Assembly (NCBI RefSeq): GCF_021209385.1
Contig: NZ_JAJOIL010000024.1
Location: forward strand, 1-64,000
Direction: 5' to 3'
Length of the DNA: 64,000 nucleotides
From: Seleniivibrio sp.
GTDB taxonomy: Bacteria > Chrysiogenota > Deferribacteres > Deferribacterales > Geovibrionaceae
This document shows positions 20,670 through 25,137 of this stretch, piece after piece (the first letter of the stretch is position 1; each line of letters opens with the position of its first letter). A program made the translations under genes and the position numbers. The notes under the pieces were generated by a model. The model saw only the letters and a program-made list of their open reading frames with translations, was not told the DNA's origin and made no database searches.

Positions 20670-21391
20670 TGAACATCCCTTTTTCAACCCCCGAAGAGGC
20701 GATAGCCTATTTCGGCATAAAAGCCGACGAGCCGGACTTCAGAAGGATAGAGGATATCCGCAGTTCGTTGCGGGCATCCGGCAGAGTTCTGAGCTATAAA
20801 GACTATGGCGCAGGACAGCCGCAGATGAAGCTTTCCGCAGAAGAGATGCACGAAGGGCGCAGGGTTGAAAAAGATCTGAACGAAGTATGCGGATGGGGCA
20901 TGAAAGGCGCATGGGCGGCTTTCATGTACGGCATGACAAAATATTATAAACCCGCGAAAGTACTGGAACTCGGCACCTGCTGCGGGTTTTCTTCTGCATA
21001 TATGGCGCTTGGCAATCCGCAGAGTAGCATAGTCACCATAGAGGGAGCGCCGGAGATATCTGCAGTTGCCGCAGAGGTTCACAAAGCATTGGGTATATCC
21101 AATATCGAACGGGTAGTCGGAAGATTTTCCGACGTACTGGGCGATGTTCTCTCAAAACACGGACATTTCGATCTGGTCTTTATAGACGGGCATCACGCAT
21201 ACGAACCCACGGTAAACTATTTCCGCACCATAAAGCCCTATGCGGCGGGTGCACACATCATTTTTGATGATATCTCATGGTCGGAAGGTATGAAACAGGC
21301 ATGGAAAGAGGTCATTTCCGACAGCTCCGTAAGCTGTCATATGGACATGGGAAAGGCAGGTCTGCTTATCACCGGTTGTAAGGAAGGCTGA
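20669..21391 (+). CDS. Class I SAM-dependent methyltransferase
   Basis: A 240-residue Rossmann methyltransferase of the O-methyltransferase-like (Methyltransf_24) group. The SAM-binding motif is VLELGTCCGFSSAYMAL; the acidic residue after strand 2 is in VTIEGAPE; the later motif LVFIDGHHAYEPT is typical of the group. It starts within the stop region of the pyrophosphatase gene (TGATG), so the two are translationally coupled. The substrate is unknown. The last 23 bases overlap the 3' end of the convergent kinase gene. Confidence 0.87.
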   Translation: MNIPFSTPEEAIAYFGIKADEPDFRRIEDIRSSLRASGRVLSYKDYGAGQPQMKLSAEEMHEGRRVEKDLNEVCGWGMKGAWAAFMYGMTKYYKPAKVLELGTCCGFSSAYMALGNPQSSIVTIEGAPEISAVAAEVHKALGISNIERVVGRFSDVLGDVLSKHGHFDLVFIDGHHAYEPTVNYFRTIKPYAAGAHIIFDDISWSEGMKQAWKEVISDSSVSCHMDMGKAGLLITGCKEG

Positions 21392-22976
21392 CCGTCATAA
21401 CCGTCCCGGAAGGCATGGAGGCGGCTGAAAGCCTGCCGTGCATATGCTGTTCGACAATCACCTTTGACATATAAAGTCCGATCCCCGAACCGCCTGTCTT
21501 TGTTGTGAAATACGGATCGAACATCTTTTCGGCAATATCGCCGTCAATTCCGCATCCGTTATCGGTTATGAATATATTAAGGGTATCGCCCGCCTCTTCA
21601 ACTTTTATGGATATTCTGCCGTCGTTGCTGTTTTTTTCTATGATGGCATCCACAGCATTGTTAAGGATATTGATGATAACCTGCTTGAACTCTGCGGGGA
21701 CTCCTTTCAGATGGATAAAATCATTTTCCCCCAGTACCTGCTCGATATTCGTTTCATCCGCATGGAGCGACTTTTGCTGGGCGAAGCAGGTAAATGCAAG
21801 TGAAACGTTGCTGTTCTTCATCCTTGCGCTTTGCAGAGAAATGACCTCTGCCAGCATCCTGAACGCAGAAAAATTCTCTTCATCCTGACCGGAACGGAAG
21901 AAACTGCTCAAATCATCCATAGTCTTTGAAATTGTCTTTATGAGCGCCATGGAATCTTTGGTCAGTTCTTTGATATAGTCCTCGTCAAGCTCTCCTGCGT
22001 TGTATGCATCCTCAAGGTCTTCAATATTTATACCCAGAGCCGAAAGGGGCTGCCTCCACTGGTGGGCTATTGCGCTTATCATCTGCCCCATGGCAAGGAA
22101 TCTGGACTGTTCAAATATTATCTGCTCGTTCTTCTTCCTTTTGTCGGTCTCTTCAACAACTGCCTTCGCAAGCTCAAGGTTCACTATCTCAAGTTCCTTC
22201 TGCTTATCCATCAGCTGTTTTTCAGCTTCCATCTTCTCCGTTATGTCATGGAAAATATGAACTATACTGCCGGACGGCAGTTTGTAGATGTAGTGGTTGA
22301 ACCAGCCGCGGATGATATCATCCTCATAGTACATCTTGTCCGCTTTAAGCGGCTGTCCGGTATCCTGAACCTGATTGATGGATTCAAGAAGCCCGTATTT
22401 CAGAGCATTTTTATATATTGCCGTAACCGGTCTTGAAACAAGATCCGTCCTGTTTCTTTTCAGAAGCTCGCAGGCGGTATTATTCACATCCGTAAATATA
22501 AATTTGCTTCCGAACTCTATGAGATCATATATAGCGACCCCGCTTGACATATTATTGAAAAGCTCGCGGTATTTAAGCTCGCTCTCTTTAACGGAGGTGT
22601 CGTTTTTGAATTTGTGCAGAGCAAGTTCTATGGTGGTTTGAAGTGTGGATTCATCAATAGGCGCATAGATATAGCCGTAATGGTTGGTCTTCATGGTCTG
22701 GTACAGGGTGCGGCTGTTTATCGCTTCGGTGTAGTATATGACCGGAACAGCAAACTCCGCCTGTACAAGAGACGCCTTGGCGATAATGTTCTTGTCCGCA
22801 TTAACCGTCATGTCCACTATGAGAATATCGGGCATGTATGATTTAACTTCTGAACCGAGGTCATCGGTTCTGAAGTTCACGATACGGACACCGTACATCA
22901 GTCCTCTGAGAGCCTTTTCAAGATTGCCTGTGGAACCGGACTTCGCCTCCACTATCATAACGTTTCTGTTTTTCAT
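21369..22976 (-). CDS. Histidine kinase with degenerate receiver and PAS domain
   Basis: A soluble 535-residue sensor kinase. Residues 1-120 look like a receiver domain that keeps the phospho-acceptor position (Asp55 in ILIVDMT) but lacks the usual acidic pair (VMIVEAKSG) and the conserved lysine (YIYAPID), so phosphorylation is doubtful. A PAS-like domain spans about 130-250, a coiled coil about 250-295, the H-box is IAHQWRQPL (His305), and the ATPase domain carries NILNNAVDAI, DNGCGID and GGSGIGL. The STAS gene lies 59 bases upstream on the same strand, suggesting one transcript. No response regulator of its own is adjacent, apart from the divergent receiver-PP2C gene. Confidence 0.9.
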   Translation of the reverse strand: MKNRNVMIVEAKSGSTGNLEKALRGLMYGVRIVNFRTDDLGSEVKSYMPDILIVDMTVNADKNIIAKASLVQAEFAVPVIYYTEAINSRTLYQTMKTNHYGYIYAPIDESTLQTTIELALHKFKNDTSVKESELKYRELFNNMSSGVAIYDLIEFGSKFIFTDVNNTACELLKRNRTDLVSRPVTAIYKNALKYGLLESINQVQDTGQPLKADKMYYEDDIIRGWFNHYIYKLPSGSIVHIFHDITEKMEAEKQLMDKQKELEIVNLELAKAVVEETDKRKKNEQIIFEQSRFLAMGQMISAIAHQWRQPLSALGINIEDLEDAYNAGELDEDYIKELTKDSMALIKTISKTMDDLSSFFRSGQDEENFSAFRMLAEVISLQSARMKNSNVSLAFTCFAQQKSLHADETNIEQVLGENDFIHLKGVPAEFKQVIINILNNAVDAIIEKNSNDGRISIKVEEAGDTLNIFITDNGCGIDGDIAEKMFDPYFTTKTGGSGIGLYMSKVIVEQHMHGRLSAASMPSGTVMTVSLPYNR

Positions 22977-23035
22977 ATCATCTCGGTTTAGCCGATAATT
23001 GCGGCAATAACAATAACAAAATGAGAATCTGTCTG

Positions 23036-23338
23036 TTAAATATTGTCTACATGTCTGACATTGAAAAGTTTTATCAGATTCAGATCCTCAAGCAGACCGT
23101 AAAGCCTACGGTCGTGTACCAAAAGTGACAGATTTATCCCGTCTCTGTGTATTATTTTAGTAAAAAAACCTATTATAGAAGATGTCATGGTCATAGAATC
23201 TGTAATCTCTATGATAAGCTCTTTTTCGCATGAGGAGATGAATTTCAGGATACTGTCTTTGATCTCGGTATAGTTTTCAATTGTATTGACCTCACCGCTG
23301 ATCCGCATTGTGTTTTTGCCGGGAAACTCAATATGCAT
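23036..23338 (-). CDS. STAS-domain protein, possible anti-sigma factor antagonist
   Basis: A 100-residue single-domain protein with the alternating pattern of a STAS domain: an IEFPGKNTMRISG start, ELIIEITDS before the conserved loop, and MTSSIIGFFTKI where the phosphorylatable serine of anti-anti-sigma factors normally lies. It is weaker than classical RsbV in the loop. I start at the ATG at 23338 (AGGGG five bases upstream); a GTG at 23344 is possible. It is divergent from a receiver-PP2C-HATPase gene and upstream of a kinase gene, as expected for a partner-switching regulator. The call rests on pattern and context. Confidence 0.75.
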   Translation of the reverse strand: MHIEFPGKNTMRISGEVNTIENYTEIKDSILKFISSCEKELIIEITDSMTMTSSIIGFFTKIIHRDGINLSLLVHDRRLYGLLEDLNLIKLFNVRHVDNI

Positions 23339-23448
23339 ATCCACCCCTGAAAACTGAAAGCCAATTTATTTTGATTTTTTCTCTTTGTTATTATAAACTG
23401 AAACTGACAGAAATTCATCAAAATAAAATTGTCTTCCGACGGATATTT

Positions 23449-25137
23449 ATGAACGAAATTAATATTATGACCGACCTTATGCGGGAACTGGTGGTTCTCT
23501 GCGTTGACGATGAACCACTTGCTCTGGAATATCTGGGAGCAAAACTTGCCAGAAAGTTCAAATCCGTCATTAAGGCATCCGACGGTACTGAAGGACTTGA
23601 AATGTTCCTTGCATACCAGCCGGATCTGATAATAACAGACAACAGAATGGGATTTATGGACGGTATCGACATGATAAAGGAGATACGCAAGACAAATCCC
23701 GACATACCGATAATTCTCGTTACTGCCTATACTGAAAAAGACGCCCTTGTTGAAGCCATAAACAACAACGTAACCCAGTTCCTCTCAAAACCCATAGACA
23801 CAAAAAAGCTGAATCAGGCAATTGAAAAATCAATGCAGTCCTTCGTAAACCAGAGACTGCAGGAAAAGAACCTTAAACAAGAACTGGAACTTCTGAAATA
23901 TCAGGAAAAATATCACTCTCAGCAGGAACTTAACGCTTTCAAAAAAGAGCTGAGCCTGATACAGAACGATCTTTTTCTGGAAAAATTCAGTCTGTCGAAC
24001 GTTTACGGCGAAAACTACAGCGTATATCTGAACATTTTTTACAAACCGCTGGATATCCTAAGCGGTGATATATACTCAATACGAAAGCTGGACGACGGTT
24101 CGCTGTTCATATTCCTTGCTGATTCCATGGGAAAAGGACTGTCCGCATCCGTCACATCAATTCTTACCTCGGCATACATGAACCACATCATAGACACCGA
24201 AAGGGAAGTTATCAAAGGACCGCTCAAAAACTCCGTACAGGTGTTCAACAACTACATCAGAGGCATACTTCTCGACGATGAGATACTCTCGATCACCTTT
24301 ATGCGTCTGGATTTCATAAATGAAAATATGGAAGTAGCAAGTTTCAGCTCCCCCCCTGTTTATGTCAAATCCAAAGACGGCACTGTTGAAACCATCAAAT
24401 GCAACAACCCGCCGCTGACAAAATATATGACCGACTTCCGCACGGACAAATACAGCATAAGAGACGTTCTCGGAATAATGGTGATAACCGACGGACTTTA
24501 CGAATGTAAGAGCCACGAGGGCGAAACCATGGTGGACAAGGTCACTGAAGGATTTCAGGCGTGCGCCATGAAAACAGACTTCCACAAATACGTCGGAAGC
24601 CTCATGGAAACACCGGAAGACGATATATCGTGCATCCATATTCTCAAGATAGACGAACAGCTTGAAGACGTCCGCGAGTTCAGGTTCAACTCCTGTCTGA
24701 AAAACGTAGGCAAGGCTATCGAATGGGCGGAAGAGTGTTTTACTGTGATGCAGAGCGACTTTGAAACAATGAATATGCTCACCCTCGCCTTTACCGAAAT
24801 GGTGATGAACTCCTTTGAACATTCGGTTCTGGAGCTGGATAACAGACAAAAATATCTGATGATCAATCAGGGAATATACGACGATTTCATCGCCGCCGCA
24901 GATTCAGAAAAGATGATATCAACCACTATCGGAATACAGAAACTCTGGGACAAAAAGGCAATAGTGATACGCATCGAGGACGAAGGAACAGGGTTTGACC
25001 CGCATATCCTGAAAACATGGATGTATGACAGGGAAAAGAGCGACGGCAAAGGTATAAAAATTTCACGGCGTATCACCGACGAAATATATTATTCAAAAGG
25101 CGGAAGAGAATCCATCATTATAAGGGTTCTCGACTGA
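23449..25137 (+). CDS. Receiver-PP2C phosphatase-HATPase response regulator (HsbR/RsbU-like)
   Basis: A 562-residue cytoplasmic protein with three domains. Residues 1-125 are a complete receiver: Asp20-Asp21, phospho-acceptor Asp64 (IITDNRMG) and Lys114 (LSKPID). A coiled coil at about 130-175 leads to a SpoIIE/PP2C phosphatase at about 190-400, with metal-binding aspartates in SGDIYS (Asp207), ADSMGKG (Asp225), VITDGLYE (Asp348) and PEDDIS. Residues about 415-562 are an RsbW-like ATPase/kinase domain (TEMVMNSFEHS, DEGTGFDPH). The same order is known in HsbR of Pseudomonas, which switches the STAS protein HsbA. The start at 23449 leaves the divergent STAS gene free; an upstream extension to 23308 is not family sequence. 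Confidence 0.92.
   Translation: MNEINIMTDLMRELVVLCVDDEPLALEYLGAKLARKFKSVIKASDGTEGLEMFLAYQPDLIITDNRMGFMDGIDMIKEIRKTNPDIPIILVTAYTEKDALVEAINNNVTQFLSKPIDTKKLNQAIEKSMQSFVNQRLQEKNLKQELELLKYQEKYHSQQELNAFKKELSLIQNDLFLEKFSLSNVYGENYSVYLNIFYKPLDILSGDIYSIRKLDDGSLFIFLADSMGKGLSASVTSILTSAYMNHIIDTEREVIKGPLKNSVQVFNNYIRGILLDDEILSITFMRLDFINENMEVASFSSPPVYVKSKDGTVETIKCNNPPLTKYMTDFRTDKYSIRDVLGIMVITDGLYECKSHEGETMVDKVTEGFQACAMKTDFHKYVGSLMETPEDDISCIHILKIDEQLEDVREFRFNSCLKNVGKAIEWAEECFTVMQSDFETMNMLTLAFTEMVMNSFEHSVLELDNRQKYLMINQGIYDDFIAAADSEKMISTTIGIQKLWDKKAIVIRIEDEGTGFDPHILKTWMYDREKSDGKGIKISRRITDEIYYSKGGRESIIIRVLD

Follow-up and report, generated by a model that had tools for sequence, protein, structure and literature searches.

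Few partner switches are known beyond Gram-positive bacteria, and it is often difficult to trace their inputs, which tend to be remote; in RsbV, the serine that serves as phosphosite is well established. Most of the closest described systems combine a STAS protein with an enzyme that carries both a phosphatase and a serine kinase domain. In HsbR/HsbA of Pseudomonas aeruginosa (PA3346/PA3347), a protein with the order receiver, PP2C, HATPase is the neighbour of a phosphoserine STAS protein (PMC6482189, PMC8256260). HsbR is fed by hybrid kinases via the HPt protein HptB, and phosphorylation of its receiver activates the phosphatase (PMC6482189). CrsR/CrsA of Shewanella oneidensis has the same domain order, a STAS partner and RpoS as its target, and its genes lie inside the che1 chemosensory locus (PMC9855816). 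In Vibrio fischeri, too, a dual serine kinase/phosphatase, SypE, has a single-domain STAS protein, SypA, as its substrate (PMC8256260). In RsfS/RsfR/RsfB of Mycobacterium smegmatis and RsbK/RsbY of Bacillus cereus, a histidine kinase phosphorylates the receiver of a PP2C phosphatase whose substrate is a STAS anti-sigma antagonist, and phosphorylation activates RsbY but inhibits RsfR as a phosphatase (PMC10950880).

Here we describe a locus in which an HsbR-type enzyme and a STAS protein are encoded beside a histidine kinase. By architecture, not orthology, the pair belongs with HsbR/HsbA and CrsR/CrsA. Unlike in HsbR/HsbA, a histidine kinase gene follows the STAS gene and the enzyme gene is divergent; no HPt or sigma gene was seen nearby. 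Within the three-gene block there was also no che gene, a difference from CrsR/CrsA. The kinase-to-PP2C step may work like that of RsfS/RsfR, by analogy, but the locus falls outside that group, since its RsbW-type STAS kinase is fused to the phosphatase, whereas in RsfS/RsfR/RsfB and RsbK/RsbY it is a separate protein. A preliminary description of this DNA had called the kinase-to-switch linkage unusual. Since a histidine kinase feeding a receiver-PP2C protein was already known, this applies to one part of it: the new element is the pairing of a histidine kinase with an HsbR-type fused phosphatase-kinase, of which we found no description in the open-access literature, to which the search was confined.

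Genes, domains and residues of the locus

The window, that is, the whole stretch of 64,000 nucleotides analysed, is contig C31 of a 2.9 Mb Seleniivibrio-like genome of the Deferribacterota. Its nearest named relative is Seleniivibrio woodruffii, with 92% identity for the receiver-PP2C-HATPase enzyme. The STAS gene and the enzyme gene are divergent neighbours, and the kinase gene begins 59 bp past the STAS stop on the same (minus) strand, which agrees with the preliminary description of a 535-residue kinase directly downstream. The features are as follows, with their basis in brackets.

21369..22976, minus strand: pseudoreceiver-PAS-HisKA-HATPase histidine kinase, 535 aa (Pfam, orthologs, alignment)
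22062..22064, minus strand: codon of His305 (HQWRQPL), the kinase's phosphoaccepting histidine (alignment, invariant 8/8)
22611..22976, minus strand: pseudoreceiver at the N-terminus of the kinase, residues 1-122, which retains D55 and T83 (Pfam, alignment, predicted structure)
23036..23338, minus strand: STAS-domain protein, 100 aa, putative anti-sigma-antagonist-type switch (AF2, PDB matches, orthologs)
23180..23182, minus strand: codon of Ser53, predicted phosphoacceptor, N-terminus of helix 2 (RsbV alignment with 6m36, invariance)
23375..23433, no strand: conserved part of the spacer that separates the divergent STAS and receiver-PP2C-HATPase genes, probably a control region (DNA alignment, 4 genomes of the genus)
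23449..25137, plus strand: receiver-PP2C-HATPase protein, 562 aa, HsbR/CrsR-like architecture (Pfam, 18-sequence alignment, phylum-wide search)
23494..23826, plus strand: receiver domain, intact (D20, D21, D64, T92, K114) (Pfam, alignment)
24091..24636, plus strand: PP2C/SpoIIE phosphatase domain, metal-site aspartates all intact (Pfam, alignment)
24697..25107, plus strand: RsbW-type HATPase (serine kinase) domain, N, G1 and G2 boxes intact (Pfam, alignment)

Comparison with orthologs favoured ATG 23338 over GTG 23344 as the STAS start and placed the enzyme start at ATG 23449. About 60 bp of the divergent intergenic region were conserved among the four aligned genomes of the genus. No terminator-like site was found in the window between the STAS and kinase genes. 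A FliA-like -10 motif (GCCGATAA) near 22993 was dropped, being without conservation in relatives.

The enzyme combines a receiver (Response_reg, 3.4e-26), a PP2C domain (SpoIIE/PP2C, 6.8e-16) and an RsbW-type HATPase (HATPase_c_2, 2.6e-7), in that order in one protein, and Pfam and the 18-sequence alignment agree on the HsbR-like order proposed earlier. The domain order of SypE differs, with the receiver in the middle. The receiver residues D20, D21, D64, T92 and K114 were kept in 18/18 aligned homologs, with D or E at position 20, and so were the PP2C aspartates D207, D225, D348, D391 and D392 and the residues of the N, G1 and G2 boxes of the HATPase. Apart from the D/E exchange at position 20, the earlier observation that phosphatase aspartates and receiver residues are intact therefore extends to all 18 homologs.

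The STAS protein matched its Pfam model with 18.8 bits, under the cut-off of 22.6. The preliminary description had staked its proposal on this fold, and the fold formed: AlphaFold2 (AF2), run on 50 sequences, gave a model with a pLDDT of 92.4 and a pTM of 0.83, in which strands and helices follow the order of a STAS domain. Its best matches among solved structures were RsfB, RsbV and SpoIIAA (probability 1.0), with TM scores mostly of 0.67-0.75 and modest E-values of ~3e-3 to 1e-2. The protein is thus predicted to have the SpoIIAA/RsbV fold. Coronavirus spike chains also appeared among the PDB sequence matches of the STAS profile; they were discarded as chance similarity, every single stretch being insignificant.

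In the predicted structure, helix 2 begins with Ser53. This residue aligns with the serine of RsbV in 'mDStGlG' (DS-T-GLG; 6m36). It was invariant in all 69 compared loci, where Ser54 can be replaced by Ala or Thr. Because Ser53 is invariant and aligned with the RsbV phosphoserine position, it is most likely the phosphoacceptor; the candidate phosphosite placed earlier in the 'SSII' motif stands, narrowed to the first Ser. The residue preceding it is T, P or N across the 69 loci, not the Asp of the canonical Asp-Ser site of SpoIIAA/RsbV, while the Ser and the downstream Gly are retained. By fold and serine, the protein may work like a SpoIIAA/RsbV antagonist, though one without the canonical Asp.

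In the kinase, PAS and HATPase_c matches were above the Pfam cut-off, and HisKA and N-terminal receiver matches were below it. AlphaFold2 and Foldseek gave the N-terminal domain a receiver fold (model from only six sequences). The PAS kinase had been described as carrying a degenerate receiver; in 8/8 orthologs the second acidic residue is lost (A, S or Y) and so is the Lys (A, T or S). The helix around the kinase His is a receiver docking site, and the alpha4-beta5-alpha5 face is a common receiver dimer face. Both are far more conserved than the other kinase regions in the eight orthologs: 33 of the 35 columns of the His-bearing helix and 35 of the 39 columns of the pseudoreceiver face were invariant, compared with 27-64% of columns elsewhere. 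This pattern suggests that contacts with partners, rather than phosphorylation of the dead receiver, are what selection has kept.

Conservation of the block and its wider family

To follow the block across the phylum, 51 genomes were sampled. Gene calls in relatives were mechanical ORFs with homology assigned by purpose-built profiles, and genome-wide counts rest on family searches. The block was found in all eight genomes of two genera, five of the window's genus and three of Denitrovibrio. Full-length kinase orthologs (59-91% identity) occurred only in block-bearing genomes among the 51, and the next kinase matches were partial and reached at most 44% identity. On either side of the block the two genera have different neighbouring genes; within it, order and orientation are retained, and protein identity between the genera fell to about 50-62%. 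The STAS stop and the kinase start are 3 bp apart in one relative (L036), compared with 59 bp in the window. Co-conservation of the three genes, named beforehand as a point that could sink the proposal, thus holds in two genera with changed flanks, and the label 'orphan' does not suit the kinase in evolutionary terms: it is a fixed neighbour of the pair.

We identified 80 relatives of the enzyme in named genomes, of which 78 had scorable context. A STAS gene adjoins the enzyme gene or shares its gene run in 65 of these 78 loci, in several phyla, and an MCP lies in the same run in 35/78, mainly in Campylobacterota. ORFs of the MCP-containing runs overlap or abut in sampled cases, and the sampled operon MCPs have an intact CheA/CheW-binding tip and NIT or dCache sensors. 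In Nitrospirota the pair is usually without an MCP. All enzyme/STAS pairs outside the two block-bearing genera are codirectional. Furthermore, enzyme and STAS distances correlate with r=0.76, a value that includes shared ancestry (best of 1000 shuffles, 0.14).

In the enzyme tree, the clade of the block and MCP-linked Geovibrio-like sequences form one group (support 93), placed next to Campylobacterota (support 89). Because of this grouping, the tree suggests that the kinase replaced a chemoreceptor in the lineage of the block. The kinase-linked form of the switch is probably derived, since the pair spans several phyla and an MCP accompanies it in 35/78 loci. In a few further loci the pair has kinases of different types nearby, and three outgroup genomes have kinases directly after STAS. 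As a tentative joint reading, which we regard as possible but not as the likelier case, a widespread and apparently undescribed MCP-linked switch would let chemosensory arrays set STAS phosphorylation, and in the window's lineage a dedicated histidine kinase with a docking dead receiver would have taken the place of the chemoreceptor. The one-operon STAS/MCP/enzyme switch proposed here would have its members in Campylobacterota, Deferribacterota and some deltaproteobacterial lineages. The nearest published arrangement is crsR-crsA in the Shewanella che1 locus (PMC9855816), a parallel to the MCP-linked relatives; no description of a STAS-MCP-enzyme operon was found in the open-access literature searched. 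The comparison directs attention to a link from chemoreceptor to STAS in Campylobacterota, likewise without a description in that literature. It also suggests one switch module fed by different sensor types across lineages, and makes the rewiring of two-component input testable.

Tight operons of STAS, MCP and enzyme genes (L147, L145, L133, L164, L154 and others) were seen in Campylobacterota, Mucispirillum, Geovibrio-like and Geobacter genomes. The sampled flanks of such operons (AAA ATPase-like, ribosomal protein) look unrelated.

Proposed phosphate path and other possible inputs

On balance, we think it probable that the locus encodes a partner switch of the HsbR/HsbA kind, served by a sensor histidine kinase of its own. 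In the path we infer, the PAS kinase would sense a signal and autophosphorylate on His305, and the phosphate would pass from His305 to the receiver of the PP2C-HATPase protein, at Asp64. The pseudoreceiver of the kinase would be unable to serve as a normal acceptor and is probably a docking or dimer module. Phosphorylation of the intact receiver would shift the fused enzyme between its two activities, the HATPase phosphorylating Ser53 of the STAS protein and the PP2C domain removing this phosphate, and the two STAS forms would bind different partners elsewhere in the cell. The known systems do not agree on the sign of this regulation. The preliminary description had spoken of a possible complete kinase-to-switch circuit. 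The input half is indeed encoded together, but 'complete' goes too far for a circuit whose phosphotransfer is deduced and whose output partners would act elsewhere in the cell. With kinase, fused kinase-phosphatase and switch protein encoded side by side, three purified proteins would suffice to test the entire input half.

What ties the kinase to this receiver is gene adjacency and co-occurrence, in a genome with many other histidine kinases, and other arrangements were weighed on the same evidence. The three genes could be neighbours without a functional connection, kept together by a short divergence time, and the restriction of the block to two genera of one family could indeed be explained by descent. 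We consider this highly improbable: the flanks were replaced on both sides while order and orientation held, identities between the genera of about 50-62% do not fit a short divergence time, and the enzyme-STAS pairing recurs across phyla. A functional pair could, however, still be driven by a chemosensory array, with phosphate running from MCP-CheW-CheA to the receiver, as it may in relatives whose operons include an MCP, and the kinase acting as a second input or serving another regulator. The intact tips of the sampled MCPs and the presence of an MCP in the runs of 35/78 relatives fit such an input, as do the MCP gene adjoining the second STAS gene of Denitrovibrio and the position of crsR and crsA inside che1 (PMC9855816). 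Yet none of the eight block genomes has an MCP in the block, where the kinase is fixed instead, and the nearly invariant His-bearing helix of the kinase also speaks against it, so that we hold a chemosensory drive to be rather unlikely.

The kinase might also be co-transcribed with STAS but work in a c-di-GMP or other pathway, leaving the enzyme alone to handle STAS; the enzyme's receiver would then take phosphate from a distant kinase or HPt protein, the way HsbR does. In 3/3 Denitrovibrio loci, a dCache-PAS-GGDEF-EAL gene comes next after that of the kinase, and the outgroup genome G001 has the order STAS, histidine kinase, receiver-GGDEF. In the window's genus, however, no receiver or c-di-GMP gene is adjacent on the kinase strand, and the only intact receiver within the conserved block is that on the PP2C-HATPase protein; we give this arrangement little credence. 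For a dedicated sensor kinase itself, cross-talk or swapped partners are possible because the genome encodes another such pair at a distance, with a STAS gene on contig C15 and a pseudoreceiver-PAS-PP2C-HATPase gene on contig C4.

Candidate outputs and further loci in the genome

The preliminary description saw no sigma factor gene nearby, and the genome-wide search bears this out: there is no sigma-70-family gene on the window's contig, and the six matches all lie on other contigs. Switches of the HsbR/HsbA and CrsR/CrsA type have FlgM/FliA, RpoS or a diguanylate cyclase as target. The genome encodes an RpoS-like sigma factor, FliA and FlgM, none of them on the window's contig. CrsR/CrsA acts on RpoS; the RpoS-like gene of this genome is on another contig, and across the phylum such genes are not distributed as the switch is. 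RpoS was therefore rejected as a universal target, since families f6, f7 and f10 carry the switch but no full-length RpoS-like sigma factor, and families f3, f4 and f8 carry the sigma factor but lack the switch. Flagellar motility was rejected as a common denominator as well: flagellin was found in 48/51 genomes and does not discriminate. Genomes G015 and G017 lack flagellin, enzyme and STAS, whereas their congener G016 has all three, an anecdotal contrast.

As an output of the switch, c-di-GMP is a plausible lead by analogy, because phosphorylated HsbA binds a diguanylate cyclase (PMC6482189). In G001 (L069:6369-9920), genes for a HAMP-GAF-PAS histidine kinase and a receiver-GGDEF protein come after the STAS gene, and this order suggests a c-di-GMP output in that genome.

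Several other loci were recorded. The arrangement of pcm next to rpoS is a proteobacterial one; the RpoS-like gene of this genome stands directly after pcm (L193:985-2852, contig C10) and scores 324 bits to the RpoS model, below the proteobacterial cut-off. The second enzyme gene (L105:5466-8944, C4) is convergent with a gene for an HQWRQPL-type PAS histidine kinase and has a counterpart in 8/8 genomes of both genera. This enzyme may pair with the second STAS gene on C15. That STAS gene, of the family described here (L040:6889-7182 on C15; also L045:7051-9302), has a PhoH-like gene in its neighbourhood, to which a dCache-HAMP-MCP gene is added at the corresponding locus of Denitrovibrio. On contig C18 (L104:4351-8508), a CheA-like gene has beside it genes that encode a PAS-PP2C phosphatase, a STAS protein of canonical type, a STAS-repeat protein and a CheR-like protein, possibly another link between a phosphatase-STAS module and a chemosensory cluster. 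In a Deferribacteraceae MAG (G030, L060:6034-7141), an ECF-type sigma factor gene follows the STAS gene.
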